The translations under genes were made by a program, and so were the position numbers. Shown here piece after piece: positions 5,647 to 26,116 of a stretch of DNA of 64,000 nt; position 1 is the stretch's first letter; each line of letters opens with the position of its first letter. Source of the DNA: Mesorhizobium sp. AR02 (GTDB taxonomy: Bacteria > Pseudomonadota > Alphaproteobacteria > Rhizobiales > Rhizobiaceae); the NCBI RefSeq assembly GCF_024746835.1, contig NZ_CP080531.1, forward strand, positions 1,922,001 through 1,986,000. The letters run 5' to 3'. Under the pieces are notes generated by a model. It was not told the DNA's origin and ran no database searches. It was given only the letters and a program-made list of their open reading frames with translations.

Positions 5647-6528
5647 TCAATTCGTCTTTCCCAACTCTTTTACACTGCATACGAGCGATTCAGGAAACTG
5701 ACATGGCTCGCCGAGCGCGGTGAAGGCGACACGCTCGACCCGCAGCGAAAGCTTGCGGCCGGGGTCCGCGAACGCGCCCATCCAGCCCTTCATGGTGTCG
5801 CTGCCCCAAAGACTGAAGAAGATCTTCTGCGCATGGCTGGGCAGCTTGGCCGGATCGGTGATGGTGTTCACCAGCTGGCCGTTGACGTACCAGCGCAAAC
5901 TGTCCTTCTCCCAGACGAAGGCGTAATCGTTGAAGGCCTTGTCAGTGCCGCCCGGCACCTCGACCAGCTTCTCGTTCTTGCCCTTGCCGTCGATATAGGC
6001 GTTGACCTGCACCTTGGAGGTGTCCTTGGTCAGGATTTCGAAGTCGATCTCGTCCCAGGGTTGCTTGTCGGACGGACCGATATAGGAAAAGAAGGCTGCG
6101 TTGAGGCCAGAGCCGGTGTCGGTCTTCAGCCGCGCCTCATAGGTGCCGTAACCAAAGCGCTGCTTGGTCTGGATCTCACCACAGGCGAACTCGCGATCCT
6201 TCAGCTTCTGCTTTTCGAAGCCGAGCGACAGCACTCCGTCGGAAAGCGCGACCAGTCCCTTCGACCAGGTGCAATTTTGATGACTGCCGTTGTTCCAGCC
6301 GTCGGACACATACCAGCGCGACCGATCGAAGCTTTTGAAATCATCGACGAAAGAGGGGGCGGACTGGATATCCTGTGCATGGGCGGGAGCCGCAAAGAGG
6401 CTGCCGAGAGCAGCCAGCAACAGCCCGCCGATCAAGCCCAGCCGCCTGAGGTCGGCTTGCCGGGTCTCATGCGCGAAGGACGTTACGTCAATTGCTGTCG
6501 TGGACGTGGTTTTCGGATCCGAATTCAT
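5647..6528 (-). CDS. Secreted GH16 beta-glucanase (ExoK-like)
   Basis: 293 residues. A long N-terminal region leads into a hydrophobic signal segment (GLIGGLLLAALGSLFAAPAHA, about 31-51) with a likely cleavage after AHA. The GH16 active site is DEIDFEI, with Glu160 as nucleophile and Glu164 as acid/base, and Asp162 between them. Rhizobial members such as ExoK cleave nascent exopolysaccharide in the periplasm or outside the cell and so set polymer length. The context (ugd downstream, exo genes 10 kb away) supports such a role. Three 20-bp direct repeats lie 114-173 bases upstream of its start and may be regulator sites. The glycan specificity is not evident. Confidence 0.9.
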   Translation of the reverse strand: MNSDPKTTSTTAIDVTSFAHETRQADLRRLGLIGGLLLAALGSLFAAPAHAQDIQSAPSFVDDFKSFDRSRWYVSDGWNNGSHQNCTWSKGLVALSDGVLSLGFEKQKLKDREFACGEIQTKQRFGYGTYEARLKTDTGSGLNAAFFSYIGPSDKQPWDEIDFEILTKDTSKVQVNAYIDGKGKNEKLVEVPGGTDKAFNDYAFVWEKDSLRWYVNGQLVNTITDPAKLPSHAQKIFFSLWGSDTMKGWMGAFADPGRKLSLRVERVAFTALGEPCQFPESLVCSVKELGKTN

Positions 6529-6718: not shown

Positions 6719-7120
6719 TCACGCCCGGCCGGCGCCGGCGGGCCTGGCGAAATCGACCGCGGCGGCCGAATCGGACGCCCCACCCTCGTCGAAAACCAGA
6801 TCCAGCGAATGGCGGAGCTCCTTCATCATGCCGTTCTGGCGCGACAACGCCGCGATGCGGCGCTCGCAATTCAGGATCGACTGCGTCAGCGCGCTAACCT
6901 CGGATGAGCGCCTGTCGGAAGCGGAGCCGTTTTCCATGGCTTCGACGAGAAAGGCCGCGTTGGTCGCCGTCTTGCGGTAACGGCTCTCCAGGCCGGTTTT
7001 CTCGGCCTCGATCTCGGCGGCAATCTGCTCGAACAGTTTCGCCAGCCGGTCGAGGCGCGCAATGTCGGTCTGCCGGTCGCGGGCCGGGTCCCTTGATCTG
7101 AAGCCGAATATCGAGGCCAT
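6719..7120 (-). CDS. Small coiled-coil protein of unknown function
   Basis: 133 residues, no recognised domain. Residues about 20-105 are charged and heptad-like (for example IAAEIEAEKTGLESRYRK and ERRIAALSRQNGMMKEL), consistent with a helical coiled coil. There is no signal peptide or membrane segment. The C-terminal tail is Ala/Gly-rich and probably disordered. It lies between a GT2 glycosyltransferase and the GH16 glycanase on the same strand with wide gaps on both sides (288 and 190 bases), so it may have its own promoter. Codon use looks like that of the neighbours. No function is proposed. Confidence 0.6.
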   Translation of the reverse strand: MASIFGFRSRDPARDRQTDIARLDRLAKLFEQIAAEIEAEKTGLESRYRKTATNAAFLVEAMENGSASDRRSSEVSALTQSILNCERRIAALSRQNGMMKELRHSLDLVFDEGGASDSAAAVDFARPAGAGRA

Positions 7121-7408
7121 GAGCTTAAATTCCTGTCACCGCCGGCTTGCGAGCCGGGCATCTGGCCGATCCCCGCAAGCGGGGCTGAAAAACGCGTACC
7201 GCATTGTCCAACTCCACCGATGGGAGAGACTTCGGACCAATCCGATCGGGGGCCAGTTCGGTTGGTCGTCGATTTGCTGCACCGCAACATAGACTGCCAT
7301 CCCCGGAGCGATGAGGCAACCACCCAATTCGTAAACTCATAAATCCGGCGGAAATGGTTTGCGCGGTGAGCGTGCTTCTGGTGGCAAAAACCAGGAATTT
7401 CCCGTGCC

Positions 7409-8431
7409 TTACCGTTCCTTGCCCGCATTGGTCCCGGCCATCAGGAAACGCAGCGGCGGCACCTGCTTTTGCCCGGAGACAAGGCCAACGCGACGAAACA
7501 GCGCCTCGAGCTTGTCGGACGCCACGCCCTGGACGATGGGGACCAGGTTGGATTGACTTGCGAAGGCATAGGCCGCGGCCGAAGCGAGCCCGCGCTCGGC
7601 CTTCACGTCGAGGAAATTGCGCAGCCGGTATTTGTCGCGCACATGCCGCTCGTGCCGCCGCAGCACCGCCTTGGAGCCTTCCGGCAGGCTGTCGATCGCC
7701 AGCAGTGCCAGATCCGCATCGGCCAGCCGCTTCAGATCCTGCGTCTTGTGGCGGCCGCTGAGCGAATCGGCGCGCACGAAAGCGCCGTAACCGCAGGAGC
7801 GGATGATCTTGAACCGTGCGCCGAGGGCGACCGCGCGGGCGTAGAGCTCGTAATCCTCGCCCAGGCGCAGGCTCTCGTCGTAGCGCAATCGGTGCCGGTC
7901 AAGGAAAGCGCGGCTGATCACGGGCTTCAGGAAGCCAAGCTCGCCTCGCTGCACGCGACGCCTGGAGATGTTGCCTTCGACGAAGCGCTCGAAGTCGAGG
8001 AATTCCGGATCGGCGGCAAAATCGGGGGCGACGATTTTGGTTGCGTCACTCGTCGCGTCATCCCTGATGAGCATGATGTTGTCGGCCGCGAAATCCCAAT
8101 CGGCGGCGGCAAACAGGTTGCGGAACCGGCCCTTGAGGAAAAAGTCGTCGGCATCCAGAATGCTGATGAACGGCGCTTTTGAGCCGGCGATGGCGGCATT
8201 GCGGGCGAAGGACGGGCCGCGATTGACGTCAAGGCGCATGACCTTGAGCCGGGCACTGCCGTCGTCGGCGGAGCGGGCGATGTCGGCCGTATTGTCGGTG
8301 GAGCCGTCGTCGACGACGACGACCTCGGCCACCTCAGGTTCGCGCAACGCGGATGCGATGGCGACCGCGATCGTGCGCCCCGCATTTTTGGCCGCGATGA
8401 TCACGCAGACCTCGGATTTCGTCATCGACAT
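7409..8431 (-). CDS. GT2-family glycosyltransferase, linked to the lasso-peptide cluster
   Basis: 340 residues from the ATG at 8431 (AAGAGG site upstream). The GT-A fold begins at once: VCVIIAAKNAG, VVVVDDGSTDNTADIA, then the metal-binding SILDADDFFLKG (DAD motif near residue 100). An alternative in-frame ATG at 8497 overlaps the stop of the nucleotidyltransferase as TGATG, the classical coupling arrangement, and would add 22 residues. Either way the two genes are one transcription unit pointing away from the lasso precursor. The enzyme could act on exopolysaccharide like its other neighbours, or on the lasso peptide. The acceptor is unknown. Confidence 0.85.
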   Translation of the reverse strand: MSMTKSEVCVIIAAKNAGRTIAVAIASALREPEVAEVVVVDDGSTDNTADIARSADDGSARLKVMRLDVNRGPSFARNAAIAGSKAPFISILDADDFFLKGRFRNLFAAADWDFAADNIMLIRDDATSDATKIVAPDFAADPEFLDFERFVEGNISRRRVQRGELGFLKPVISRAFLDRHRLRYDESLRLGEDYELYARAVALGARFKIIRSCGYGAFVRADSLSGRHKTQDLKRLADADLALLAIDSLPEGSKAVLRRHERHVRDKYRLRNFLDVKAERGLASAAAYAFASQSNLVPIVQGVASDKLEALFRRVGLVSGQKQVPPLRFLMAGTNAGKER

Positions 8432-8496
8432 GGGTTTTGCCTCTTGCACAGGTTCCGATATGCCCTCGCCCTGTACGTATTGCGACGCCACCGCCA

Positions 8497-9636
8497 TCAC
8501 GGACTGGCGGGCCGCTCGAAGATGCGGCGGCTGATGTCCGCCGACGCTGCCCAGCCGGCCTCGGCCAGGTAGCGGACGGGAGCCCTGCCGCACAATTCCC
8601 ACAACACCGTTCGCCGCTGCGGCCATCGCAAGGATGACAGCCATGGCGCGATGACCATGTTGAGCAGGTCCTCATTGCCGATGCGCGACAGGATCGGCTT
8701 GGCCCGCTCCGACAAAAGCGTGCCGGTGCCGCCCAGCAGCACATCGGCGGCGCGCAGGCCGAGCAGCAGCGTATCGTCCAGCCCCTGGCTCACCGCCGCA
8801 TCGAGAACACGGCGCTGATCGGCCTCGTCGAGACGGTTGGCGCTGGCCCTGATGTCGCAGACATAACCGGCGCAGGGTTCGCGGTTGAACAGTGCCTTGG
8901 CGACGCTGATGCAGGAGAGCATCAGCGTGTCGGCGACCGACGTGAACGGCACTTCAGTGCCGGTGATCTCGACCAGCCGTTTGCGCCGCAGGAAGCCGTC
9001 GGCATCGCGCGGACTGGGCGAGCCGGGCTGCTGGAGGCGATAGTGAAGGTCGACCGTGGACGATTTCGGCCCGTTGCCGCGGATCATGTGCTGTTCGCCA
9101 AGGAAACGAACCCACCAGACCGAGCGCGACTTGCCAGCGACCTCATAGCCGATCGAGCGTAGTGCATCGCGCGCTTTTGAGAACCCGGCAGGGGAAACCA
9201 GGATGTCGACATCGCCCGAAGGCTTCATGAAATGGTCGTCGTAGAGCAGATGCTGCTGGAACGGACCTTTGAGAAAGACGAAATCGATCTGCCTGTCGCG
9301 CAGCGCCTGGTGGATCGCCATCGAATCCATCAGGCAGGCGGCGTTCATCGAAACCGTCTGCCGGCGATAGGTGCCGAGCCATTGGAAAAGCTCAGCCGGC
9401 CTGTCACCCGCCGGGAGGCGCGACAGCGCCTTCAGAACGAAGGTGGCGACCTTGTTCAGCCTGGCGATATCGGCGACGGCGGCGGCGGAAAGGCTCGGTG
9501 TCGACACCTCGCCGGCCGAGGCCGTCGGTCCAGCGAAATACAACCGCAGGCAGGCCTTCACATAGGCAATCTCGTCGCCGCAATCAGCGGCGCGCAGTCG
9601 TTCATAGGAACTTTCCGGCAAGGCCATTAAGCGCAT
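8497..9636 (-). CDS. NTP_transf_5-type nucleotidyltransferase of the lasso cluster
   Basis: 379 residues from the ATG at 9636, chosen because TGGAGAC stands just upstream; longer and shorter starts (9675, 9627) are possible. The core motif is FLKGPFQQHLLY followed by KPSGDVDILV near residues 125-150, the Gly-Asp-x-Asp signature of nucleotidyltransferase-fold proteins of the NTP_transf_5 (PF14907) type. These proteins recur in lasso-peptide clusters. In the pseudomycoidin system, as far as I recall, such a protein together with a kinase decorates the peptide C-terminus with phosphate and then sugar. The gene is transcribed divergently from the precursor and shares its 505-bp upstream region. 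Assignment to the lasso pathway is inference from this context. Confidence 0.8.
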   Translation of the reverse strand: MRLMALPESSYERLRAADCGDEIAYVKACLRLYFAGPTASAGEVSTPSLSAAAVADIARLNKVATFVLKALSRLPAGDRPAELFQWLGTYRRQTVSMNAACLMDSMAIHQALRDRQIDFVFLKGPFQQHLLYDDHFMKPSGDVDILVSPAGFSKARDALRSIGYEVAGKSRSVWWVRFLGEQHMIRGNGPKSSTVDLHYRLQQPGSPSPRDADGFLRRKRLVEITGTEVPFTSVADTLMLSCISVAKALFNREPCAGYVCDIRASANRLDEADQRRVLDAAVSQGLDDTLLLGLRAADVLLGGTGTLLSERAKPILSRIGNEDLLNMVIAPWLSSLRWPQRRTVLWELCGRAPVRYLAEAGWAASADISRRIFERPASP

Positions 9637-10046
9637 TGTCTCCAAAAAGCGGTTTGCGCGACGCGTATGCTGCAAGTGCGAAGCAAAGCATCCTCAAAAA
9701 CCTCGACGCCGTAAAGTCTTTCCTTTCGCAGTGCGAAATTTTGCAACCAGAGCGTTTGCCGACCTTCCGAGGATCGCGCAATATACGACTGAATTCCGGC
9801 TCTATCGAGGCGTTTTGGCCGGTCACAACCACGGGTCGGCTAACAGAAATCCATCTTTTTAGCGGCGCCTAAAAAAGCATCAACGCTACGAATTTTTTAT
9901 GCAAGCAAAATCAATTGCTTAAAGAATCATCAGCGCAACGCCCGACCGCACATGGTTTCAGCCCGAAAGAGGCGGAATTTTGAGCACTCCGCACACGCAT
10001 GGTGACGCCCGCAACCCGTAATTGATTAACCGCAGGTAAATCAGGC

Positions 10047-10077
10047 TTGACTCATAAATGTTGCCATGCAGCTATTG
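10047..10077 (+). promoter_or_regulatory. Candidate promoter of the lasso precursor
   Basis: GCTTGACT (TTGACT at 10047-10052) matches the alphaproteobacterial CTTGAC -35 box well. The best -10 box, GCTATT at 10071-10076, is poor and gives an 18-base spacer. Transcription would start near 10083, leaving a leader of about 60 bases. Confidence 0.3.
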
Positions 10078-10086
10078 CATCGCAGC

Positions 10087-10140
10087 ATGAAAGTGCTGAC
10101 GGCACTCGACAGGCCGTTTCCAGTCCTCATTGGAGAGTAA
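10087..10140 (+). other. Possible 17-codon upstream reading frame
   Basis: The frame ATG AAA GTG ... GGA GAG TAA encodes MKVLTALDRPFPVLIGE and stops one base before the precursor ATG. Its last codons are the precursor ribosome site (GGAGAG). It lacks a clear ribosome site of its own. It may be chance, or a small coupling peptide. Confidence 0.2.
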
Positions 10141-10141
10141 A

Positions 10142-10294
10142 ATGGAACAGAATGTTGAAAAGCACGAGTACGAAACGCCAAGCCTGACGGTACATGGTTC
10201 CATTGAAACCATCACCCAGGGCGGCGGTGGCAGCACGGCAATCGACGCGTCGTTTCCCGCGCACACCCCAATTGGCGACCTGACGTTCTCCTGA
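10142..10294 (+). CDS. Lasso-peptide precursor (50 residues)
   Basis: 50 codons with a good ribosome site (GGAGAG at 10132-10137). The leader carries the conserved lasso recognition motif YxxPxLxxxG: Tyr10, Pro13, Leu15 and Gly19, in YETPSLTVHG. The conserved penultimate leader threonine is Thr25, which predicts cleavage after Gln26. The 24-residue core would start GGGGSTAID, placing Asp9 for a 9-residue macrolactam ring closed on Gly1, and it ends in TFS. This layout is close to paeninodin, whose ring is AGPGTSTPD and which also ends in Ser. The gene is followed by B1, B2, cyclase, kinase and exporter genes in the same direction. The small size explains why routine gene finding can miss it. 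Confidence 0.93.
   Translation: MEQNVEKHEYETPSLTVHGSIETITQGGGGSTAIDASFPAHTPIGDLTFS
10220..10291 (+). other. Predicted lasso core peptide
   Basis: Codons 27-50 of the precursor. Ring residues 1-9 are GGGGSTAID, with the amide predicted between the Gly1 amine and the Asp9 side chain. The 15-residue loop and tail contain Phe12, His15, two Pro (13, 17), a second Asp (20) and Phe23, a possible plug, before the C-terminal Ser24. By hand calculation the monoisotopic neutral mass is about 2257.07 for the dehydrated lasso form and about 2337.03 with one phosphate. Confidence 0.8.
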
Positions 10295-10303
10295 GACTAG
10301 CCT

Positions 10304-10337
10304 GATCCTGGAGGAGTGACGTTGGGCCTCCGGGATC
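10304..10337 (+). promoter_or_regulatory. Stem-loop 1 after the lasso precursor
   Basis: The arms GATCCTGGAGG (10304-10314) and CCTCCGGGATC (10327-10337) pair over 11 positions with one G-U, around a 12-base loop. It starts 10 bases after the precursor stop. No T-run follows, so it is more likely an RNA stabiliser or partial attenuator than a full terminator. Confidence 0.6.
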
Positions 10338-10353
10338 CAAGAAAAAATGGAGC

Positions 10354-10371
10354 CGGGGATGAAAATCCCCG
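10354..10371 (+). promoter_or_regulatory. Stem-loop 2 (GAAA tetraloop) before B1
   Basis: CGGGGAT and ATCCCCG form a perfect 7-bp stem closed by a stable GAAA tetraloop. It is followed by a pyrimidine-rich stretch (ACTTTCCTTCTTC), not a clean T-run. With stem-loop 1 it forms a tandem structure between the precursor and the enzyme genes. Confidence 0.6.
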
Positions 10372-10427
10372 ACTTTCCTTCTTCGACTGACGACGCGTAG
10401 ACCGTGTGTTGCAAATGAGGTTTTGGG

Positions 10428-10727
10428 ATGAACTGGAACCCATCCGAGCACGATATCGTAAATGCCACGAAGGACGCCGTGGCTTGCGAATTCGGCGATG
10501 GCCTCGCGCTGCTCAACCTGAAATCCAACATCTATTACAGCCTCAACGGCGTCGGTGCGTTCATCTGGGAGCTGATCCAGGAGCCGAAGTCGATCGCCAA
10601 TATCCGCGGCGCCGTGCTTGAGCGCTACAATGTCGACGCCGAGCGCTGCAAGGCCGACGTCGACGCCTTGCTGAAAGGCCTGACTGAGAACGGACTTGTG
10701 AGGCTGCAGCATGAGGCACTTGTCTAG
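10428..10727 (+). CDS. Lasso B1 protein: PqqD-like leader-recognition element
   Basis: 99 residues. The family is the PqqD-like RiPP recognition element, which binds the precursor leader and hands it to the B2 peptidase. Visible family features are the beta-rich N-terminal half with FGDGLALLNLKSNIYYSLNGVGAFIWELI and a helical C-terminal half with the usual VDALLKGLTENGLV. A GAGG site lies eight bases before the ATG. Its last 17 bases overlap the start of the B2 gene, so the two should be translated together. The Tyr and Pro of the leader motif in the precursor at 10142 are the expected contacts. Confidence 0.9.
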   Translation: MNWNPSEHDIVNATKDAVACEFGDGLALLNLKSNIYYSLNGVGAFIWELIQEPKSIANIRGAVLERYNVDAERCKADVDALLKGLTENGLVRLQHEALV

Positions 10728-11226
10728 GCAGGCTGCGCAAAAGGCCATGATCTCGCGGCAAAGACCTGCGATGGACCAAAGACCGAGGCCTGCGAAACGC
10801 CGGCCCAGCCGGAGCCTGGCCAGGGTTCTGTCCCTGAGCGGCTCGGAAGCACTTTTCCTCTGCCATTGCCTGCTGGTGGTCGCCTCCATCCGGCTGGGGC
10901 TGACCTTGTTCTCCTACAACCGTGTTCGCGGCATGGTGACCCGGCTCAACGCCCGCCAGTGCGCCAGCATGGGCGAGCTGCGGCTCGTCGCCTGGGGGGT
11001 TGCCGCGGCTGCGCGGTTCGTGCCGCGCGCCACCTGCCTTACCCAGGCGCTTTCGGGTCAATACATTCTCGCGCGCCAGGGCAATGCCTCCAACATCCGC
11101 ATCGGCATCGAACGTGGCACGGGCGAGCAATTGAAGGCGCATGCCTGGCTGGTCAGCGACAACCATGTCGTGCTTGGCGGCTCCGTCGATGGTTTCGCGC
11201 ATCTGGTCGACCACGGCAGCAGATGA
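10711..11226 (+). CDS. Lasso B2 protein: transglutaminase-like leader peptidase
   Basis: 171 residues. B2 is the cysteine protease that removes the leader before ring closure. The catalytic Cys109 is in RATCLTQAL and His144 in AHAWL; Asp150 or Asp160 may complete the triad. The N-terminal 35 residues are basic and probably flexible. The ATG at 10711 has a GAGG site seven bases upstream and overlaps B1; an ATG at 10747 is the alternative. The stop overlaps the cyclase ATG as ATGA. B1 and B2 are split here, as is usual outside the microcin J25 type, where they are fused. Confidence 0.92.
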   Translation: MRHLSRQAAQKAMISRQRPAMDQRPRPAKRRPSRSLARVLSLSGSEALFLCHCLLVVASIRLGLTLFSYNRVRGMVTRLNARQCASMGELRLVAWGVAAAARFVPRATCLTQALSGQYILARQGNASNIRIGIERGTGEQLKAHAWLVSDNHVVLGGSVDGFAHLVDHGSR

Positions 11227-13145
11227 GCGGCGTGGCCGGAATCCTGCTGCGACAGGGCCCCGCGCCGGCGGATGCGGCGGCCGACATCCAGCAGATGCTG
11301 GCCCGCATGCGCCATCGCGGCCCCGACGGAAATTCATGGTGGCTGGATGCCGGCGTAGCCCTTGGCCACGCCTGGCTCAACACCACGGATGAAGCCGGCC
11401 CCGGCCCACTGACCATGGCCGGAGGCAAGCTCGCCATCACCGCCGATTGCCGGCTGGACAATCGCGACGAGCTGATGGCGCGGCTCGGCATACGCGACAG
11501 GTCGGTTGCGGACGCGACATTGCTGATGCGGGCCTATCTGCGCTGGGGCGAAGCCAGCCCCGTGCATCTGCAAGGCGATTTCGCCTTTGCCATCTGGGAC
11601 GCCGAGCGGCAGCTGTTGTTCTGTGCGCGCGACCATTTCGGGGTCAAACCGTTCTACTACCATGCGGCGGACCGGTGTTTTGCCTTTGCCTCCGAGATCG
11701 GGCCGATGCTTGGCCTCGACGGGGTCGGTGCGCGCATCAGCGAGCGCCGCATTTCGGGATTCCTGGCCGGACTTCCCGACGACCCGCAATCCACCCCCTA
11801 CAGCGATGTCTTCAGCCTGCCGGCGCGTCACAGCCTCACTGTCACCGCGCAACAGGTGGTGCTGCGCCGATACTGGCAGATCGAGCCGTCGGCGCGACCG
11901 CTGCGGTCGGATGCGGCGGAGGAATTCACCCATCTGTTTTCGCAATCGGTGCGCAACCGCATGCGCGGAAGTCAGTCGATCGGCGCGATGCTGAGTGGCG
12001 GCCTCGATTCCTCGTCGATCGCCTGTGTCGCCAGCCTGCAGAACGCCGCCGAGCGGAAACCGAAGCTGCCGACCTTCTCGCTGATTTTCGAGAAGGGTTC
12101 GTCGATGGACGAGCGGCCCTTCATCGATGCCGTGCTGGATCAGCAAAAAACCGATCCGACGCTGATCCCCGTCGGCAATTATGCGCCCTTTGCTGAATTC
12201 GAACGCGTGCTGGAGGAGCAGGAAGGCACCTTCCTGGCGCCGGGCCTGACGCTGACCCGCGGCATCTACCGGACGGCGGGCGCCAAAGGAATCAAGGTGC
12301 TGCTCGACGGCCATGGCGGCGACGAGGTCGTTTCGCAGGGACATGGCCATCTGCACGAGCTTGCCAATGGCGGCAGGTGGCTGGACCTTTGGCGCGAGGT
12401 CCGCAGCGCCTCCAACACCTATGGCGACAGCACGCTCGGCCTCTATTTCCAGTTCCTGACCCTCTACGGGCCGGCCTGGCGGATCGCCAAGGCGAGACAG
12501 CTGGCGACCCGGGCTCTCAACAGGATACGCAAGCCCGCGCAAACACAGCGCGGCCGCAGCTGGCGCGACCTGATCAATCCGGACCTGGCCAGGCGGACCG
12601 AACTTATCGACCGCTTCCACCGGGCCGGCTATATGCCGCCCGGCGTCCAGGCCAGCGACGCGCTCAGCCATCGCTGGATCCTGTCCAACGGCTATGTGCC
12701 GCACTCTTTCGAGGTGCTCGACAAGGCGGCGGCCAATTTCGGCGTCGAGCCGCGTTATCCCTTCTGGGACAAGCCGCTGGTCGAATTCTGCCTGGCGCTG
12801 CCGGGCGAGGAGAAACTCAGCCACGGCTTTGGCCGCTATGTGTTGCGTCGGGCCATGGAGGGCATCCTGCCGGCGGCGGTGCAGTGGCGACGCACCAAGA
12901 TCGATTTCACCGCCAATCTCGTCAACGGCATGGTACGCAACCATCGCGACCTCCTGGAACAGCTGCTGGTTTCGGATGCCGGCCGCATCGCGCCCTATGT
13001 CAACCTGCCACAGGTGAGCGCCGCCTATGCGCGGCTGCTCAGCCAACCCGATCAGGCAGCACCGCTCGATGTCCAATATGTCTGGCGTTCGGCTTCGCTG
13101 TCGCTGTGGCTGCGGCAGGTCCAGCACGCCGGGAGCCCCGCATAA
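11223..13145 (+). CDS. Lasso cyclase C: asparagine-synthetase-like macrolactam synthetase
   Basis: 640 residues. It adenylates the acidic ring residue (predicted Asp9 of the core) and closes the amide with Gly1 while folding the tail through the ring. The N-terminal domain resembles a class II glutamine amidotransferase, but the sequence begins MSGVAGI, so the nucleophilic Cys2 of true asparagine synthetases is absent, as expected for an enzyme that uses no glutamine ammonia. The ATP-pyrophosphatase motif is SGGLDSS at residues 258-264. The start overlaps B2 (ATGA) and the stop overlaps the kinase (TAATG), marking a tightly coupled operon. An ordinary asparagine synthetase is unlikely in this context. 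Confidence 0.93.
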   Translation: MSGVAGILLRQGPAPADAAADIQQMLARMRHRGPDGNSWWLDAGVALGHAWLNTTDEAGPGPLTMAGGKLAITADCRLDNRDELMARLGIRDRSVADATLLMRAYLRWGEASPVHLQGDFAFAIWDAERQLLFCARDHFGVKPFYYHAADRCFAFASEIGPMLGLDGVGARISERRISGFLAGLPDDPQSTPYSDVFSLPARHSLTVTAQQVVLRRYWQIEPSARPLRSDAAEEFTHLFSQSVRNRMRGSQSIGAMLSGGLDSSSIACVASLQNAAERKPKLPTFSLIFEKGSSMDERPFIDAVLDQQKTDPTLIPVGNYAPFAEFERVLEEQEGTFLAPGLTLTRGIYRTAGAKGIKVLLDGHGGDEVVSQGHGHLHELANGGRWLDLWREVRSASNTYGDSTLGLYFQFLTLYGPAWRIAKARQLATRALNRIRKPAQTQRGRSWRDLINPDLARRTELIDRFHRAGYMPPGVQASDALSHRWILSNGYVPHSFEVLDKAAANFGVEPRYPFWDKPLVEFCLALPGEEKLSHGFGRYVLRRAMEGILPAAVQWRRTKIDFTANLVNGMVRNHRDLLEQLLVSDAGRIAPYVNLPQVSAAYARLLSQPDQAAPLDVQYVWRSASLSLWLRQVQHAGSPA

Positions 13146-14158
13146 TGCCCCGCAACCAGCCGCTCGCCACATATCCTGGTGATCCTGCTCCTCATGCCGG
13201 GATGATGCGGGAGCGGCGATACTACCGGGCCTATGGTCTGACCATCGCGTCCGACGTAGCGCTGCCCGAACTGGAGCCGGCGGAGCCGGCGCCAGCGGAT
13301 ATACTGATCGCGATCGGCACGATCGACATGCCGAAGCCTTCGCCCGAGACCGCGACAATCTTCCGCTTCGAGCACGACCGGCAATATCTGGCATGGCATG
13401 CCGTCGGCGCCTTCCTGATCAGCGATTTCGGCCGCATCGACATCGAGCCCGCGCCCGGCGTCGACGACGCGCTGCTGGCCTTCCCACTGCTCGGGCCGGT
13501 GATGGCGCTGCTGCTGCACCGGCGCGGCCTGCTCGTCCTGCATGCCAGCGCCGTTGCGGTGGCCGGCAGGGGCGCCATCTTCATGGGTGACAAGGGCGCC
13601 GGCAAATCGACGACGGCAAGCGCGCTGATCCGGGCCGGTCATGAATTGCTTACCGACGATGTCGTGGCGCTGGATCTCGCCAAACCCGAGACGCCGATGA
13701 TCGTTGCGGGCTTTCCCCAGATCAAGCTTGCCGCCGACGCCGCGGCCGCGATTTCGCTTGGCCGGGCAGAGGTGCGGCCGCAAGTACATCCGCAGATCGA
13801 GAAGATGCAGCATCGCCTGCACGGCGCCTTCTCCAACGGCACGGTGCCGGCGACCAGGATCTATGTCCTCGAGCGCGGCCAAAGGGCCGGGATCACGGCC
13901 TTGCCCGGCATCGCCGCCCTGCCGGCGATCATCAAATTCTCCTATGTGACGCGGTTCGGCCGGGCGGCGCTGTCCGGCGATTTCGCAGCGCTGCATTTTC
14001 GCCAATGTTCAGCAATCGCTAACCATGTCGGTGTGTTCCGGCTGGAAGTTCCGACCGGCCTCGACAGGATTGGCGAGGCGGTGGAGCTGATCGAAACCGA
14101 TCTGGCGGCCCAGGATCCGGTGGCCGGGGATCTGGCAGCTGGCCGCCGGAAACGGTGA
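13145..14158 (+). CDS. HPr-kinase-like lasso-peptide kinase
   Basis: 337 residues. The P-loop is GDKGAGKST at residues 148-156, preceded by HASAVAVAGRGAIFM, and followed by LLTDDVVALD, an acidic motif like that of HPr kinase/phosphorylase. Kinases of this family in the paeninodin-type clusters phosphorylate the side chain of the C-terminal Ser of the precursor. The precursor here does end in Ser50, so enzyme and substrate fit. The ATG at 13145 overlaps the cyclase stop (TAATG) and the stop overlaps the exporter GTG start (GTGA). An in-frame ATG at 13202 is less likely. It lacks the N-terminal domain of true HPr kinases. Confidence 0.88.
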   Translation: MPRNQPLATYPGDPAPHAGMMRERRYYRAYGLTIASDVALPELEPAEPAPADILIAIGTIDMPKPSPETATIFRFEHDRQYLAWHAVGAFLISDFGRIDIEPAPGVDDALLAFPLLGPVMALLLHRRGLLVLHASAVAVAGRGAIFMGDKGAGKSTTASALIRAGHELLTDDVVALDLAKPETPMIVAGFPQIKLAADAAAAISLGRAEVRPQVHPQIEKMQHRLHGAFSNGTVPATRIYVLERGQRAGITALPGIAALPAIIKFSYVTRFGRAALSGDFAALHFRQCSAIANHVGVFRLEVPTGLDRIGEAVELIETDLAAQDPVAGDLAAGRRKR

Positions 14159-16012
14159 GCGCCATCATGTCGAAGTCCTCAATCCTTCGCCTGTCGCTGT
14201 TTCGCGATGTCGCCGCGTTCGGCGCCGTCATCGCCCAGATCGGCGGGCGGCGGACCTGGACGGCACTGCTGTTCCTGATCCTCGGCAGCCTGACGGAAGG
14301 CATCTCGATCCTGCTGCTTGTGCCGCTGCTGCACCTGGTCGGCCGCGCCGACCAGGATTTCGCGGTGCGGTTGCCGAACAATGATTTCGTACGCTGGCTG
14401 GTGCCGGACGGAACGCTGCAGCTGACGACGGTGTTGTGCGCGCTGGTCGGGCTCGTTGCCGTGCAGGCAGCGTTCAACCGCTTCAAGTCGGTCTACATGG
14501 CCAGGCTTCTCTTCGATTTCATCAACCGCTTGCGCATGAACCTGTTCGAGAGCATCGGCAAGGCGCGCTGGGGCGTGTTCTCGCGCATGCGCAGCTCGGA
14601 TCTCGACCACGCCCTGACTGGCGACATCGATCGCGTCCAGGGCGCCGCCTTCTCGCTGCTGATGCTGGTGCAGATATCAGTGCTTTTGGTGGGCTATCTC
14701 GTGATCTCCATGTTCATCTCGCCGGTCATGACGGCGTTTGCGATCGTCATCGGCATCGTGATGTTTATAGCGCTGCAGCCGTTTCGCGCACGCGCCACCG
14801 CTTTCGGGCGTGTCCTCACCAGCAATCGCCAGGATCAGTACCGGACGGTCTCGGAATTTCTCGGCGGCATCAAGGTGGCCAAGAGCCTGAATGTCGAGGC
14901 CAGCTATTTCGCGCAGTTGCAGGCGACGCTGGAAAAGATGAAGGCCGACAACATCGACTATGTCAGCAACAGCTCGATCGGCACCGCCGTGTTCCAGGTG
15001 GCGAGTGTCGTGGGCCTCAGCCTGTTCATTCTATGTGGCGCTGGTCCGCTTCAACCTGTCACTGGCCGAGATTGTCGTGCTGCTGCTGGTTTTCATGCGC
15101 ATCGCGCCGCGCTTCATGGACATGCAGACGCAGGCCCAGCAGGTGCTGATCAACCTGCCCGCCTATACGGCCATGCGCAGCCTGCAAGCGCGTTTCGACG
15201 CCGAGCACGAACCGGGCCATGCCGAAGCTGGGGATGCCAAAAAACTGTCGCTCGATACCGGGCTGAATATTCGCGGTGTTTCCTTCGGCTACGACGACGG
15301 CACCGGCAAGACGGTGGTGAACGACATCACCTTCGGGCTTCCGGCCGGCAAGGTCACCGCCCTGATCGGCCCCTCGGGATCGGGCAAGAGCACGATCGCC
15401 GACATGCTGCTCGGCCTGCTCGAACCGACTGCCGGCAAGATCCTCGTCGACGGCGTCGAGATCGATGCCAGCAATCGCCGGCGCTGGCGCGACCAGGTGG
15501 CCTATGTGCCGCAGGACGTGTTCCTGCTGCATGACACGATCGCGGCGAACCTGCGCCTAGCCGCGCCGCAAGCCGGCGACGACGATCTGTGGACCGCGTT
15601 GCGCGCCGCTCACGCCGGCGAATTCGTCGAACGGCTCGATCAGCGGCTCGACACGATCGTCGGCGACCGCGGCGTGCGCCTCTCCGGCGGCGAGCGTCAG
15701 CGCATCGCGCTTGCGCGCGCGCTGCTGCGCAAGCCGTCGCTGCTCATCCTCGACGAGGCGACCAGCGCGCTCGACTGGCAGAACCAGTCGCTGATCGCCC
15801 GCTCGATCGACGGATTGCGCGGTGCGATGACCATCCTGACCATCGCGCACCGGCCATCGATGATCGCCTTCGCTGACTGGGTGGTGGCGATGGAAGACGG
15901 CCGTGTCGTGGAAGTCGGACAGTATCAGCGGCTGAAGGCGAAGCCGGCGAGCCGGCTGTCCAGGATGCTGTCGGGAGAACAGTCGGAAACCGAACCTGCC
16001 AATGTGGCTTGA
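14155..16012 (+). pseudogene. Lasso-peptide ABC exporter, frame broken by one base
   Basis: The corrected product would be 618 residues: a membrane domain (six hydrophobic segments within about 1-300) fused to an ATPase domain. The ATPase part is intact, with Walker A GPSGSGKST, signature LSGGERQRIALARA and Walker B LLILDEATSALD. The first frame runs from GTG 14155 (or ATG 14167) and matches the family until residue about 292, then turns into nonsense and stops at 15534. The family-like sequence resumes one frame over (YVALVRFNLSLAEIVVLL) at about 15032. Removing one base near 15031 restores a single frame of 619 codons. It may be a real mutation that prevents export, or a sequencing error. 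In lasso clusters this D protein exports the peptide and gives self-immunity. Confidence 0.85.
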
Positions 16013-16312: not shown

Positions 16313-16912
16313 ACCCAACAGCCCATAAACCGGCCCGGGTTATATCAAACGATAGCCCCACCCGAGCGCCGTCCCTTGTTCTGCGGGCTTGTAAAGGTGC
16401 CCGCTATCGACCGGTTGCTTCCGGCCTTTCAACCTGTCGCCACTCTGACAGGTATAATTTGCAATTCTATTAAGGCGAGCAGGAGGCGGCAAGGGCAACC
16501 GCACATATTTTTGATTGAGCTTGCGCGATCGACTCTATCATGCTGCAACGCACACCACCGCAATTCACTCAACCTGCAGCCACCGGCCCTTTTCAGTACA
16601 ACTAACAATATTATGTAGTATTTTATGTTAATAGTCGCGAACTTCGCCCCTTCCTAAAGCACTAATATGTACCGTTCCCGGCCATTGAGAACGGCCTGCC
16701 CAAAAATCGCCCCAAAAAGGTCCGCATTTTTTTCCGCTTGCCCATTTCTTGTCACAAATGTGCTAACCATCCTGAAAAATGTGCATTGCTAGCTTATTAT
16801 TTAGTCAATTCATGACGCGACTATTTCAGTGGCCCGGGAAATTGTGTGTTGCGCTGCAACATTTTTTTGGTATCGTGTGGTGAACCATTCGTTCAACGCA
16901 TGGAGTTTCCGC
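16313..16912. promoter_or_regulatory. AT-rich divergent exoX/exoY control region
   Basis: This 600-bp stretch has no supportable gene. It is markedly AT-rich for the window (for example 16590-16640 and 16720-16870) with T-runs. A perfect TATAAT at 16453-16458 lacks a suitably spaced -35 box. Both exoX and exoY promoters must lie here, and the unusual length suggests several regulator sites. Confidence 0.5.
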
Positions 16913-17590
16913 ATGAGGGATATTGCCAAGTCGGCCACGGCGGGCTTTTCGCAGGCTGACACCGATTTTCCGCCGCCAATCGGCGGCCTCATCAAGCGCA
17001 GCTTCGATATTGCCGGCTCACTGGTTGGTCTGATCGCTCTTAGCCCGCTGTTCATCATGATAGCGTTGCTGGTCAAGTTTTCCGACGGCGGATCGATTTT
17101 CTACGGTCATCGGCGAATCGGTCGCGGCGGACGGATTTTTCCGTGCCTGAAATTCCGCACCATGGTTCCGAACGGCGACAAGGTGCTGGCCGCCTATCTC
17201 GCCACCAACCCGGACGCCAATGCGGAATGGATAGCGACCCGCAAGCTGAAGAACGATCCGCGCGTCACCCGTGTCGGCGCGGTGTTGCGGAAGCTCAGCC
17301 TCGATGAACTGCCGCAGATCATCAACATCCTGCAGGGCGACATGAGCCTCGTCGGGCCTCGCCCGGTGGTGCGCGACGAACTGGAAATCTACGGCAGCGC
17401 CGCCGTCTACTATCTGAAGTCGCGGCCCGGCCTGACCGGCCTGTGGCAGGTCAGCGGCCGCAACGACGTCTCCTACGACAGCCGCGTCGCCTTCGACCGC
17501 CACTATGTCGAGAACTGGTCGCTGTTCGGCGACGTGCGCATCATCATCAAGACCGTGCCGGCCGTCTGGATGTCACGCGGCTCTTACTGA
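16913..17590 (+). CDS. exoY: ExoY: undecaprenyl-phosphate galactosyl phosphotransferase
   Basis: 225 residues, the same length as Sinorhizobium ExoY. It transfers galactose-1-phosphate from UDP-galactose to undecaprenyl phosphate, the first step of exopolysaccharide repeat-unit assembly. One hydrophobic N-terminal segment ([20 protein letters not shown]) is followed by the polyprenol sugar transferase core: [32 protein letters not shown] and [13 protein letters not shown]. The ATG at 16913 has a GGAG site at 16902; an upstream GTG at 16829 would add 28 unrelated residues. exoF follows after 72 bases, as in the classical exoYF operon. Confidence 0.95.
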
Positions 17591-17662: not shown

Positions 17663-18934
17663 TTGAAAACAGATATGTTCGAAGCCTTTGGCAGCGGCCG
17701 CTTTTCCGGCCGCTCTCGGCTCATGGCCACCTGCCTTGCGGTGTCGCTCGCTTTTCTTCCCCGGATCGCCGCAGCCGACGACTACCACCTGGGCTCGCAG
17801 GACAAGCTCACCATCCGCATCGCCGAATGGCAGACCGTGGAAGGCACCTTCCGCGACTGGACGGCGGTGAACGGCCAATACACGGTCGGCCCGGGCGGAA
17901 CGCTGTCGGTGCCTTTCGTCGGCGAGTTGCCGGCGGCTGGCAAGACCACTGCGGAAGTCGCGGCGGCAATCGGCGAGGCACTGCAGCGCAAGCTCGCTCT
18001 GTCGGACAAGCCCGAGGCCTCGGTCGAGATGGCGCAGTTCCGGCCCTTCTATATCGCGGGCGAAGTGCAGAACCCCGGCCAGTTTCCCTATGTGCCCGAT
18101 CTGACCGTGCTGAAGGCGATCAGCGTCGCCGGCGGCATCAGGCGCAGCACCGATTACGGTCCCCAGCTCGGCAAAGACCTGGTCACCGCCAAGGGCAATT
18201 TCGATATCTCCGATGACCAGCGCGTCCGGCTGCTCGTCAGGCGTGCCCGCATCGATGCCGATCTGGCCGGCAAGACGAGCTTTGAGGCGCCGAAGGAGGT
18301 CGAGGCCGACCCAAGGCTGCCGACCATCGTCGCCGACGAGATGACGATCCTGACGGCAGACCAGAAGGCGCTGAAGCTGAAGCTAGAGGCGCTCGACGAT
18401 CTCAAGGGGGTTCTGCAGGCCGAAATCGAATCGCTGCAGAAGAAGATCGTCAACCAGCAGAAGCAGGTCGACCTGGCGCAGCAGCAGCTCGACAGCATCG
18501 GTCCGCTGGCGCAGAAGGGCCTGGTCGCCAATTCGCGGCTCCTGGATTCGCAGCAGTCCGTCACCGACCTGCAGGGCAAGATCCTGGACTATGAGACAGC
18601 CATCCTCACTGCCAAGCAGGCGATCAGCAAGGCGACACAGGACGCCATCGATGCCCAGAACACGTTGAGCTCGACCCTCGCCGCCGACCGCCAGCAGACC
18701 GAAGCCGACCTGAACGAGGCTGCGCTGAAGGTGAATATGCAAAGAGGCCTGATCGCCCAGGCCAGCGATCCCGCGACAACGGCCGCCATCACCAGCGACC
18801 AGCAGCCCACCTTGCTCTATTCGCTGGTGCGCAATGTCGACGGCAAGACCAGCGAAATCGCGGCGAAGGAAGAAACACCGGTTCTGCCCGGCGACGTGAT
18901 CAAGGTCAAGCTGGCACCGCTGGCCAGCCAGTAG
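17663..18934 (+). CDS. exoF: ExoF: periplasmic/outer-membrane polysaccharide export protein
   Basis: 423 residues from a TTG at 17663 with a GGAA site six bases upstream; an ATG at 17675 is the alternative. A signal peptide (MATCLAVSLAFLPRIAAADD) precedes the polysaccharide export domain, which begins YHLGSQDKLTIRI and includes YTVGPGGTLSVPFVGEL. The SLBB-like segment FYIAGEVQNPGQFPYVPDLTV follows near residue 125. Residues about 225-360 are strongly helical and coiled-coil-like (LEALDDLKGVLQAEIESLQK), as in ExoF, not a plain Wza. It would form the outer part of the export channel for the exoY-dependent polymer. Confidence 0.9.
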   Translation: MKTDMFEAFGSGRFSGRSRLMATCLAVSLAFLPRIAAADDYHLGSQDKLTIRIAEWQTVEGTFRDWTAVNGQYTVGPGGTLSVPFVGELPAAGKTTAEVAAAIGEALQRKLALSDKPEASVEMAQFRPFYIAGEVQNPGQFPYVPDLTVLKAISVAGGIRRSTDYGPQLGKDLVTAKGNFDISDDQRVRLLVRRARIDADLAGKTSFEAPKEVEADPRLPTIVADEMTILTADQKALKLKLEALDDLKGVLQAEIESLQKKIVNQQKQVDLAQQQLDSIGPLAQKGLVANSRLLDSQQSVTDLQGKILDYETAILTAKQAISKATQDAIDAQNTLSSTLAADRQQTEADLNEAALKVNMQRGLIAQASDPATTAAITSDQQPTLLYSLVRNVDGKTSEIAAKEETPVLPGDVIKVKLAPLASQ

Positions 18935-22875: not shown

Positions 22876-24966
22876 TCAGCCGGTAGCCCGCCCCGCCACG
22901 GCCGCCTGGATCAGGCGGTCGGCGAGGATCGCCAGAAAGGCGATCGACAGGCCGGCGATCAGGCCCATGCCGGCATCGGCCTTGCCCAACGCGACATAGA
23001 CCGCCTGGCCGAGATCGCGTGTGCCGACCAACGCCGCGATCGCCAGCATGGAGAGTGCGGCCATGATGGTCTGGTTGAGGCCCAGCATTACCACCGGCAG
23101 CGCCAGCGGCAGCTTGGCCTGGAACAGCGTCTGCGCAGGTGTCGCACCCATCTGTTCGACCGCCTCGACAATATCGGCGCGCACATGCCGCAAACCGTGC
23201 TCGACATAGCGGATCGGCGGCACGATGGCGTAGAGCATGATGGCGATCAGCGCGGTGAACTCGCCGACCTTGAAGAACATCAGCGCCGGAATGAGGAAAA
23301 CGAATTGCGGCACGGTCTGCAGCGCGTCGCAGACCGACCTGAGTGCGCGGGAGGCGCGTTCGCTGTAAGCCGCCCAGACGCCGAGCGCGCCGCCGATCAC
23401 CAGACAAAGCAGCACCGCCAGTGTGCAGAGATAGAGCGACTGGATCAGCGCACCCCACAGACCGTTGACGAGGATGAGGAGGAATCCCGCCGCGGCAAAA
23501 AGCGCGAGCCGCAGGCCGGCGACCTGGAAGGCGAGCAGCGCAATGCCAAGGATGAAGACCGGCCAGGGAAAGCCGAGAAAACCGGTGTAAAGCAAGGTCC
23601 CGGCGACCAGCACTGCCAGCGCCTGCCGCCAGCCGAGGCGATGCAGCAGCAATGCGATGGCGAGCAGAACGGCAACGAAGTAGGCCGCATTCGCGGCCGG
23701 CGAGAGCGAAAAACCCCAGATGGCAGGAACGGCGGCACCCGATATGCCGATCCTGAGTGGCAGCAGCAGGCAATACAGCACGCCGTTGCGCAGGCCGTCG
23801 AAGAACCAGGCATAGTCGCGCACGAGGCCGAGCAGCCATTGATTGATGCCGCCGACCTGCATGCGCAGCCCGCTCGCCGGCAGCCATGGATCATCCGGCC
23901 ATATCAAGCGGATGGCTATCGCTAGCAAGGCCGCGAGCAGCAAGGCCATGACGAGCCGGCGGCCGGTCATCCAGGCCATGGCCGCCGTCGGTCCGCTCGG
24001 GCGCTCCTTGGCGAAGCCGATGGTCAGCCGGTCGATGAGGATGGCGAGCAGCGCGATCACCAGACCCGACAGGATGCTCTGGCCGAACTCGGCCTTGCGC
24101 ATCGACGACAGCACCTCCCAGCCGATATCCTCGAAGCCGCCGATGATGGCGGCGACGATCACCATGGAGAGCGCCGCCATCGTCGTCTGGTTGAAGCCGA
24201 CAAGGATCTGCGGCAGAGCGGTCGGCACCTCGACCTGCCAGAATTGCTGGCGTCGCGTGCAGCCGCTCATCAGCCCGGCCTCGCCGATGTCGGAGGGCAC
24301 GCGGTCCAGCCCGAGCATGGTGTTGCGCACCATTGGCGGCGTTGTATAGATGGCGCTGGCGATCAGCCCGACCACCGGCCCGAAGCCGAACAGCAGAAGC
24401 AGCGGAATGAGATAGGCGAAGGCCGGCACGGTCTGCATCAGGTCGAGCGCGCCGAGCAGTGCCGGGCGCAGGCGCCGACTGCCATGGCCAAGCACGCCAA
24501 GCGTAAAGCCGAGCCCGGTGGAGATCGGCACGGCGAGCAGCACCAGCGACAGCGTGCTCATGCTTTGCGGCCAATAGCCGGCGATCAGAATGTAGCCGAG
24601 CGCAAGCAGCGCGAACGCCGCCAGCCGGATGCCACTCGATTTGAGCGCCAGCACCGCCACCGCCAGCATCACCGCTGGCCATGGCAGCCAGACCAACACC
24701 AGGCGCGCGCCACGCATCGGCGCGTCGAGTATGGCGGACAGAGCACGAAATGCCGGCTGGACGACGGTCACGACGGCGTCAGTGACCGCGTTGATGGCCG
24801 GCGCCAGCGGCAAGGTCCACTCCTTCGGGAACGTCACCAGCCAGGGGAGATCGGTCTTCAGGACAAGACACAGTGCGCTCAGCACGATGAACACGCACCA
24901 CGGTAGAAGCGCCGGCTCGATCGCCACCCTCGGCGAGGATCGAAATGATGCGGCCGGCGCGGTCAC
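22876..24966 (-). CDS. Double permease of a glycine betaine/proline ABC transporter
   Basis: 696 residues. Two permease domains of the ProW type are fused in one chain, each with its own EAA-type loop: GEAGLMSGCTRRQQFWQVEVPTALPQI near residue 230 and VEAVEQMGATPAQTLFQAKLPLALPVV near residue 600. Each half keeps NQTTMAALSMVIVAA / NQTIMAALSMLAIAAL, a ProW hallmark. At least twelve membrane segments are expected. One chain can thus replace the usual permease dimer. It overlaps the ATPase gene by four bases (ATGA), and the binding protein is further upstream, so the three form one operon for compatible solute or choline-like uptake. Confidence 0.88.
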   Translation of the reverse strand: MTAPAASFRSSPRVAIEPALLPWCVFIVLSALCLVLKTDLPWLVTFPKEWTLPLAPAINAVTDAVVTVVQPAFRALSAILDAPMRGARLVLVWLPWPAVMLAVAVLALKSSGIRLAAFALLALGYILIAGYWPQSMSTLSLVLLAVPISTGLGFTLGVLGHGSRRLRPALLGALDLMQTVPAFAYLIPLLLLFGFGPVVGLIASAIYTTPPMVRNTMLGLDRVPSDIGEAGLMSGCTRRQQFWQVEVPTALPQILVGFNQTTMAALSMVIVAAIIGGFEDIGWEVLSSMRKAEFGQSILSGLVIALLAILIDRLTIGFAKERPSGPTAAMAWMTGRRLVMALLLAALLAIAIRLIWPDDPWLPASGLRMQVGGINQWLLGLVRDYAWFFDGLRNGVLYCLLLPLRIGISGAAVPAIWGFSLSPAANAAYFVAVLLAIALLLHRLGWRQALAVLVAGTLLYTGFLGFPWPVFILGIALLAFQVAGLRLALFAAAGFLLILVNGLWGALIQSLYLCTLAVLLCLVIGGALGVWAAYSERASRALRSVCDALQTVPQFVFLIPALMFFKVGEFTALIAIMLYAIVPPIRYVEHGLRHVRADIVEAVEQMGATPAQTLFQAKLPLALPVVMLGLNQTIMAALSMLAIAALVGTRDLGQAVYVALGKADAGMGLIAGLSIAFLAILADRLIQAAVAGRATG

Positions 24967-26024
24967 GAGCGCGTGCGCCTTTTCTGTTCGCGCTCCAGCA
25001 CGGCCAGCACGGAACCGGCGGTCAGCAGTGCCGGCGGTGCGGCGCCCTCGCCCGCGACGCGGAAGGCGCGAACGCCAGACGCTAGGCGCGGGATGAGCTC
25101 CTCCAGGCTGGTGTCGGCAGCGATGGTCTCATCGGGCGCGGCTGTTGCCTCCAGCGGCGTCGCGAGATCACCTGCCGTGATGACGCGCAGCAGCGGCATG
25201 TCCTCGGTGAACTGCGCGACATAATCATCGGCCGGGTTGAGCACGATGTCGGCCGGGCGACCGATCTGGACGATCTTGCCGGCGCGCATGATGGCGAGCC
25301 GGTCGGCCAGGCGGAAGGCTTCGGCCATGTCATGGGTGATGAAGACGATGGTCTTCTTCAGCATCCTTTGGAGCCGCAGGAACTCGTCCTGCATCTGGCG
25401 GCGGATCAGCGGATCGAGCGCGGAGAACGGCTCATCGAGGAACCACAGTTCCGGCCCGACGGCGAGCGAGCGGGCAATGCCGACGCGCTGCTGCTGACCA
25501 CCGGAAAGCTGGTGCGGAAAGGACGCCTCGCGGCCTTCCAGCCCGACCAGCGCGATCATCTCGCGGGCACGGGCTTCGCGGTCCTTGATAGGTTTGCCCT
25601 GGATCTTCAGCGGGAAGGCGACATTGCCCAGAATGGTGAGATGCGGCAGCAGGCCGAAATTCTGGAACACCATGCCCATGGCGTGGCGGCGCAGCTCTAT
25701 CAGCTCCTTGCCGCTGGCCTTCAGCAGATCCTGGCCGTCGAGCAGGATTTCGCCGGCGCTCGGCTCGACCAGCCGTGACAGGCAGCGCACCAGCGTCGAC
25801 TTGCCGGAACCGGAGAGCCCCATGATGACGAAGATCTCGCCGGTCGCGACTTCGAAGGTGGCATCGACCACGGCCGGGAGATGCGCCTCCGCGCGCAGCC
25901 GTTCGGCCAGCGCGTCCGGCTCGATGACGTAGCCGCGGGAATCGAAGTAATAGGCGGGACGACGCCCATAGACCTTCCACACATTGCGGCAGGCGAGCTT
26001 GATCGAAGGTGTGGCGGCATTCAT
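24963..26024 (-). CDS. proV: ATPase of the glycine betaine/proline ABC transporter (ProV-type)
   Basis: 353 residues. Walker A is GLSGSGKST, the signature LSGGQQQRVGIARSLA, and Walker B ELWFLDEPFSALD. An N-terminal extension (about 50 residues, KVYGRRPAYYFDSRGYVIEPD) before the ATPase and a C-terminal domain with DTSLEELIPRLASG, resembling a CBS-type sensor, are typical of ProV/OpuAA. The substrate cannot be told from the ATPase itself. It is translated just before the double permease with a 4-bp overlap. Confidence 0.88.
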   Translation of the reverse strand: MNAATPSIKLACRNVWKVYGRRPAYYFDSRGYVIEPDALAERLRAEAHLPAVVDATFEVATGEIFVIMGLSGSGKSTLVRCLSRLVEPSAGEILLDGQDLLKASGKELIELRRHAMGMVFQNFGLLPHLTILGNVAFPLKIQGKPIKDREARAREMIALVGLEGREASFPHQLSGGQQQRVGIARSLAVGPELWFLDEPFSALDPLIRRQMQDEFLRLQRMLKKTIVFITHDMAEAFRLADRLAIMRAGKIVQIGRPADIVLNPADDYVAQFTEDMPLLRVITAGDLATPLEATAAPDETIAADTSLEELIPRLASGVRAFRVAGEGAAPPALLTAGSVLAVLEREQKRRTRS

Positions 26025-26116
26025 CGCTTCAGGCCCTCACACGAGCCGAACCCGGCTCCGCAAAATGCGAAGCCGGGCCGGCAAACCGGCCGCCGCACGA
26101 GCGGGGAGACATGGAC

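Follow-up and report, generated by a model that had tools for sequence, protein, structure and literature searches.

Several of the lasso peptide clusters described so far carry a kinase beside the usual maturation enzymes. The pseudomycoidin cluster of Bacillus pseudomycoides combines an HprK-like kinase and a nucleotidyltransferase with a precursor whose C-terminal Ser is the acceptor: PsmK phosphorylates this Ser and PsmN then adds a hexose there, possibly with a contribution from host enzymes (PMC9266682). The paeninodin enzyme PadeK is likewise a C-terminal Ser kinase and works on the precursor ahead of cyclisation (PMC9266682). In Bradymonas sediminis, the Bsf cluster brings together A, B1, B2, C and D with K and N genes, its kinase BsfK bears the motif H-G-G-G-K-S-D-D, and BsfB1 accelerates both the kinase and the peptidase (PMC10368454); BsfK and LppK phosphorylate Ser3 (PMC10368454, PMC13381572). 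A block of comparable composition lies in Mesorhizobium sp. AR02 (assembly GCF_024746835.1), in the stretch of 64,000 nucleotides analysed here and called the window (contig NZ_CP080531.1, positions 1,922,001 to 1,986,000 of the forward strand), which lies on a 7.47 Mb contig of an 8.9 Mb genome. This block, at window positions 8497-16012, we read with a probability of about 0.72 as a lasso pathway whose predicted product has 24 residues, a Gly1-Asp9 ring and a C-terminal Ser that would be phosphorylated and likely glycosylated, with a role at the cell surface together with exopolysaccharide. Among the matches listed, the nearest named loci all belong to Mesorhizobium.

Precursor A (10142..10294, plus strand) is an open reading frame (ORF) of 50 codons with its ATG at 10142; the leader (10142-10219) carries YETPSLTVHG and a Thr at position -2, and the core (10220-10291) is GGGGSTAIDASFPAHTPIGDLTFS, all as the first-pass annotation of this DNA had given it. 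It thus has the YxxPxL leader, the Thr at -2, the Gly as core residue 1 and the acid within residues 7-9 expected of a lasso precursor and, with NCBIfam curated cut-offs and Pfam gathering scores used for family assignment throughout, it passes NF033528 (lasso_cyano; 38.9 vs 33 bits) and NF033521 (24.6 vs 19). An equivalent 50-codon ORF stands upstream of B1 in 70/70 Mesorhizobium-type loci (L031-L100), and the precursor-like homologues beside B and C genes, whose lack the first-pass annotation had named as one finding that would speak against it, are there in all 70 relatives. Because the family models are passed, the enzyme residues are kept in 71/71 relatives (L031-L101, the set used for residue checks) and the small ORF precedes B1 in every one of the 70 loci, the precursor is not a chance ORF.

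The YxxP leader motif occurs in all 71 precursors, and ten core positions are invariant among them (Gly1, Asp9, Phe12, Pro13, Ala14, Thr16, Pro17, Thr22, Phe23 and Ser24), the C-terminal Ser24 being encoded by four different codons. Gly3 is found in 35/71, and the four leading glycines, earlier remarked upon as unusual, are no family trait. In a wider set of family members (120 listed of 261, from an alignment search biased toward similar sequences), 117 end in Ser and 104 in LTFS, and the acid is at position 9 in 92 of the 96 listed members with a TQ junction; the last of these counts and the invariant Asp9 support, at sequence level, the Gly1-Asp9 ring first proposed for this sequence. The likeness extends to Nostoc and Calothrix, whose precursors belong to the lasso_cyano model and have Asp9 and the tail F..xTP....TFS in common with those of Mesorhizobium, and the tail pattern is common to cyanobacterial and other alphaproteobacterial precursors; five cyanobacterial loci differ in that the precursor lies downstream of C, with a kinase present. 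Over the 71 precursors, dN/dS is 0.020 in the leader and 0.181 in the core (0.307 in the ring, 0.126 in the tail), compared with 0.156-0.249 for the remaining genes of the block, so that constraint on the whole core is about that on the block genes, stronger on the tail and weaker on the ring (rows: A, B1 and C 71/71 loci, K 59, NTP5 and GT2 55, sugar transferase 38; rows that were not a multiple of three, contained stops or had coverage below 75% were left out). The predicted masses, recomputed, are 2257.065 Da for the lasso and 2337.031 Da with phosphate, in agreement with the earlier 2257.07 and 2337.03, and 2499.08 Da with one further hexose. Several NCBI records already label such proteins 'lasso peptide [Mesorhizobium ...]', which weakens the remark that the precursor is easy to miss.

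The maturation enzymes follow directly on the plus strand. B1 (10428..10727), the putative leader-binding RRE of the PqqD family, matches PF05402 (72.9 vs 23.4); B2 (10711..11226), the leader peptidase, matches PF13471 and exceeds the cut-off of NF033537 (63.3 vs 33), with Cys109, His144 and Asp167 in 71/71 relatives; and C (11223..13145), the macrolactam cyclase, scores 797 vs 525 bits with NF033535 and has SGGLDSS in 71/71. Adjacent B1, B2 and C genes with their catalytic residues are thus in place, B1 being assigned by Pfam only. Residue 2 of the cyclase is Ser, where glutamine-using asparagine synthases carry Cys. That this asparagine-synthase-like gene and its neighbours would tailor exopolysaccharide and form no lasso pathway is extremely improbable: the polysaccharide-associated amidotransferase model TIGR03108 does match the cyclase weakly, at 207 bits, but this is far under its cut-off of 816.9 whereas the lasso cyclase model is passed, and B1, B2 and the precursor are all present and co-conserved with the cyclase. 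An amidotransferase assignment of the cyclase is refuted by the same shortfall. Of the six consecutive plus-strand genes with overlapping junctions described at first pass, A, B1, B2, C and K stand, as do four overlaps (B1/B2, B2/C, C/K and K/D); A and B1, however, are separated by 133 nucleotides (nt), and the sixth gene, the exporter, is broken.

What sets this lasso pathway beside pseudomycoidin is the tailoring pair. K (13145..14158, plus strand) is an HprK-like precursor kinase with a predicted C-terminal Ser target; it passes Hpr_kinase_C (PF07475, 37.2 vs 33.3) and has H133, G148, K154, S155, D171 and D172 in 71/71 relatives. On the opposite strand, NTP5 (8497..9675, minus; true start probably M14 or M17, at ~9636 or ~9627) is an NTP_transf_5 nucleotidyltransferase (PF14907, 110 vs 31.2 bits), predicted to be the tail-sugar enzyme in a PsmN-like role, and keeps the motifs KG and DxD in 70/70 aligned relatives. 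In a survey of 146 Mesorhizobium genomes (cut-offs of E up to 1e-80 for the cyclase and up to 1e-40 for NTP5), NTP5 is found in 104, namely all 103 genomes with the cyclase and G123, a 79%-complete assembly; this divergently transcribed gene, which the first-pass annotation did not mention, belongs to the lasso block. HprK-like kinase residues, a C-terminal Ser and a nucleotidyltransferase gene in the cluster together make up the pseudomycoidin set, and the tail Ser is for this reason likely to be phosphorylated and then glycosylated. In the pathway that family membership and the published relatives suggest, B1 would bind the YxxPxL leader and so offer the precursor to the kinase, the peptidase and the cyclase; K, from its catalytic motif and the invariant Ser, would phosphorylate Ser24; NTP5, by its likeness to PsmN, would add a sugar onto the Ser24 phosphate; B2 would cleave after TQ and C would close the ring; and D, interrupted in this genome, would export the peptide.

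The block is embedded among exopolysaccharide genes. To its left are a GT2 glycosyltransferase (7409..8644, minus; PF00535), whose true start is probably near 8431 judging from the onset of homology, then a poorly conserved short ORF, an ExoK-type endo-beta-glycanase of family GH16 (5647..6528, minus; NF052392, 448 vs 350 bits) and a UDP-sugar dehydrogenase. To its right are an undecaprenyl-phosphate sugar transferase (16829..17590, plus; PF02397; TIGR03022 at 312 bits, below its cut-off of 403) and a polysaccharide export protein (17663..18934, plus; PF02563, Poly_export), which we take by analogy to be ExoY-like and ExoF-like, respectively. Over the 70 loci, the sugar transferase is present in 70, the export protein, GT2, NTP5 and ExoK in 69 each and the UDP-sugar dehydrogenase in 68, all on the expected strands; the missing genes are those of L050, L073 and L079, in each case at a contig end, and the order GT2-NTP5-A-C-sugar transferase holds in 69/69 loci over a span of 8.1-8.6 kb. 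The exopolysaccharide island proposed at first pass is therefore a firmer setting than was claimed. Four loci outside the genus with enough flanking sequence (36-53% cyclase identity) each have NTP5 and at least two polysaccharide genes: besides NTP5, L101 has GT2, ExoK, the sugar transferase and the export protein, L121 GT2, the sugar transferase and the export protein, L122 the sugar transferase and the export protein, and L123 GT2 and ExoK. The short ORF between ExoK and GT2 (6886-7428, minus) is 33-86% identical where found and has no match in Pfam or NCBIfam.

The distribution of the block sets it apart from the genes around it. The cyclase is found in 103/146 Mesorhizobium genomes and the export gene at 17663 in 140/146, three of them (G012, G030 and G131) only at E ~1e-71; orthologues are otherwise rare, with 10/394 genomes sampled across the family (6 of them Mesorhizobium) and 2/387 across the class, one being the window's own genome and the other, new there, G544 with a 31% match. 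In the 25 of 43 cyclase-minus genomes that have an export protein at least 67% identical, the lasso-minus locus was searched for deletion scars: a gap of 1.05-1.49 kb separates GT2 from the sugar transferase in 25/25, and it retains the spacer preceding the sugar transferase in 25/25, a 3' coding piece of the exporter in 18/25 and a stretch of the NTP5 side (window 9550-9756, for the most part immediately upstream of where NTP5 likely starts) in 23/25. Because this exporter remnant is still there, the block was once present and then deleted, with GT2 retained, in at least 18 of these genomes; and because deletion removes the stretch from NTP5 to D while GT2 stays, the lasso block is distinct from the exopolysaccharide genes. 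GT2 had been considered as a lasso tailoring gene and is ruled out, as it is kept in 25/25 lasso-minus loci whereas NTP5 goes. A gyrB tree built from 38 of the 103 cyclase-plus and 42 of the 43 cyclase-minus genomes (80 in all; the 43rd, G123, has no gyrB match) requires at least six state changes, four of them forced by well-supported branches; gain and loss are left undistinguished by this tree in the deepest, small-genome branches, and in the one deep-branching cyclase-minus genome that was read (G141, locus L120) no lasso gene was found. In Bacilli, by comparison, at least 102 gain or loss events are reported for such clusters (PMC13381572), a figure on a different scale from at least six changes among 80 genomes of one genus.

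Where the block is present, its descent is mostly vertical and its history common with that of the flanks: the divergence of the cassettes tracks that of the flanks, with r = 0.92 over 2628 locus pairs (of 2775 from 75 rows; those in which a gene was missing were excluded). Twenty pairs have close flanks and distant cassettes, of which 18 involve G116, one is G046-G130 and one, L033-L097, is marginal. G116 (L227) and G046 (L228), which are not sisters on the gyrB tree, share an identical alternative core, GTGGDTALDGVFPIHTPKGQLTFS. Compared with their close relatives G117 and G130, they are only 72-85% identical from A to K and in the membrane half of D but 91-98% identical in NTP5, GT2, the ATPase half of D and the sugar transferase, so that divergent cassettes sit between native flanks; precursor, enzymes and exporter membrane half appear to move together. 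Since the two cassettes are only 74-88% identical to one another, this was not one recent transfer. Antibacterial lasso peptides are well known, and the main rival to a surface role, which fits these divergent cassettes, is that the peptide would be a narrow-spectrum bacteriocin or a kin-discrimination agent directed at other rhizobia and sited in the exopolysaccharide locus by chance. An identical alternative core in non-sister strains and repeated loss over the gyrB tree are what such competition would leave; we nevertheless hold it unlikely, because cassettes and flanks diverge together and 18 of the 20 mosaic pairs trace to a single genome, because the ten core positions are invariant in 71/71, and because the tail pattern is common to precursors as distant as those of cyanobacteria. 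Its presence throughout the genus and a core that hardly changes in most strains speak against a simple arms-race antibiotic, whereas the divergent cassettes keep a part for competition alive.

The exporter of this particular strain is interrupted. D (14155..16012, plus), an ABC exporter recognised by frame and homology comparison, is split into ORFs 14155-15534 and 14960-16012: homology in the frame that opens at 14155 ends near 15,030 and the remainder is read in the other frame, so that an intact ABC exporter in a single frame, as a lasso cluster should have, is not found in the window and the single exporter gene of the first-pass annotation does not hold here. In the related loci holding both halves, D is in one frame in 76/76, of which 73 are stop-free and three have stops confined to the ends of the aligned region, and among the loci checked the frame break is found in this genome only. 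Export may fail in this strain; alternatively, the interruption could stem from an error in sequencing. One may thus ask whether the module is decaying here, the broken exporter being the first lesion of a non-secreted or non-functional remnant. Besides the frame break itself, such decay would agree with the scars that deletion left in the 25 lasso-minus loci examined and with G051 (L124) and G078 (L125), both counted as positive, where the cyclase is disrupted, being either split over different reading frames or without part of its middle. It seems doubtful all the same, given that every other gene of the block is open, that those examined keep their relatives' catalytic residues and that one isolated frame break could be an error of sequencing; a break in this strain is, besides, uninformative on the other genomes.

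A role for the peptide at the cell surface with exopolysaccharide, for instance associated with the matrix, is most likely, and a sporadic antibiotic less so, because the block occupies one locus, has a near-constant tail and encodes a predicted phospho-sugar tailoring. Several points weigh on the other side. The 43 genomes without the cyclase make the block dispensable, and with the exporter broken here the peptide may go unsecreted, unless the break is a sequencing error. The link to exopolysaccharide is one of gene position and shared descent, and the genes may merely share a locus; in the five cyanobacterial loci, no polysaccharide neighbours were found by homology. The G116 and G046 cassettes fit equally well with selection on the core for a role in conflict. 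K reaches no NCBIfam kinase cut-off and B1 falls under NCBIfam's narrower lasso-B1 cut-offs (58.4 vs 80 and 51.4 vs 70), while known kinases vary in their target: position 3 of the core is Gly here, yet Ser also occurs at positions 5 and 11. A bolder version, which we consider quite improbable, is that the phospho-sugar handle on the C-terminal Ser would join the threaded lasso to the growing polysaccharide or anchor it there and so produce a lasso-tipped matrix, the peptide head being swappable as a cassette between strains.

Set against the described systems, the Mesorhizobium block would resemble pseudomycoidin in its tailoring and differ from it in several respects: pseudomycoidin comes from Bacillota, NTP5 is divergently transcribed and the block sits in a rhizobial exopolysaccharide locus. 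Paeninodin-like clusters of Bacilli are co-located with capsular polysaccharide loci and have leaders with a near-invariant WxxP (PMC13381572); the Mesorhizobium leaders have YxxP and, lacking WxxP, the block is not placed in the paeninodin clade, though it likely works in the same way. The Bsf cluster has the same gene set and kinase motif, but BsfA ends in Asp, is phosphorylated at Ser3 and has Ile as its penultimate leader residue, where Thr is found here (PMC10368454). Lasso clusters of Butyrivibrio, from another phylum than the rhizobial block, keep similar company, with an HPr kinase, a nucleotidyltransferase, a GT2 and EpsH (PMC7533575). As of May 2026, what paeninodins and their linear relatives do was described as unknown; these peptides are reported to lie often in capsule loci of Bacilli, where extensive gain and loss is said to erase their history (PMC13381572). 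Mesorhizobium contrasts with Bacilli in offering one locus, a history mostly that of the flanks, natural deletions and two divergent cassettes; with these ready-made comparisons, the purpose of such lasso peptides becomes testable. The exopolysaccharide of M. loti is reported to matter for nodule infection (PMC4456278), although it is not necessarily the product of the lasso-bearing locus. Lasso clusters with a kinase and a nucleotidyltransferase, the occurrence of such clusters within Bacilli capsule loci or next to GT2 and EpsH in Butyrivibrio, and NCBI-named Mesorhizobium precursors are already known; as far as the literature search shows, the fixed place in a rhizobial exopolysaccharide locus, the membership of NTP5, the deletion scars and the cassettes are new, and among the matches listed from the open-licence literature no title or abstract on a rhizobial lasso cluster was found.

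Two non-coding segments flank the precursor gene. The ~120 nt directly upstream of it are strongly conserved in 71 loci and include CTTGACT and AATTGATTAA..GGTAAATCA; this block (10018..10141, plus), made up mostly of columns with at least 70% identity over the 71 aligned upstream regions, is a likely candidate for a promoter or regulatory region. The A-B1 spacer holds two predicted RNA helices on the plus strand, counted over 42 of the 70 listed spacers with L064 (230 nt) excluded for its length: helix 1 (10306..10335) has 91.3% of cells paired and two-sided changes at 4/6 pairs, and helix 2 (10350..10374) 95.7% and 2/10 pairs. Rfam gives no known RNA family for the spacer, its one match (E 0.77, far below the gathering score) lying inside the exporter. 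The number of pairs changed on both sides and that of further pair types are not exceptional (269/500 and 233/500 shuffles equally high, respectively). Together, the two helices have 94.0% of 672 cells paired and 40 cells with two-sided changes, and their covariation score is 0.329 vs 0.261; 0/500 shuffles come as high for paired cells, for two-sided cells or for the covariation score, and pairing is lost when the partners are slid. They may determine how much precursor is made relative to the enzymes. Farther to the right, just past the polysaccharide genes, lie unrelated genes of a choline/glycine-betaine type ABC transporter (22876-27120).

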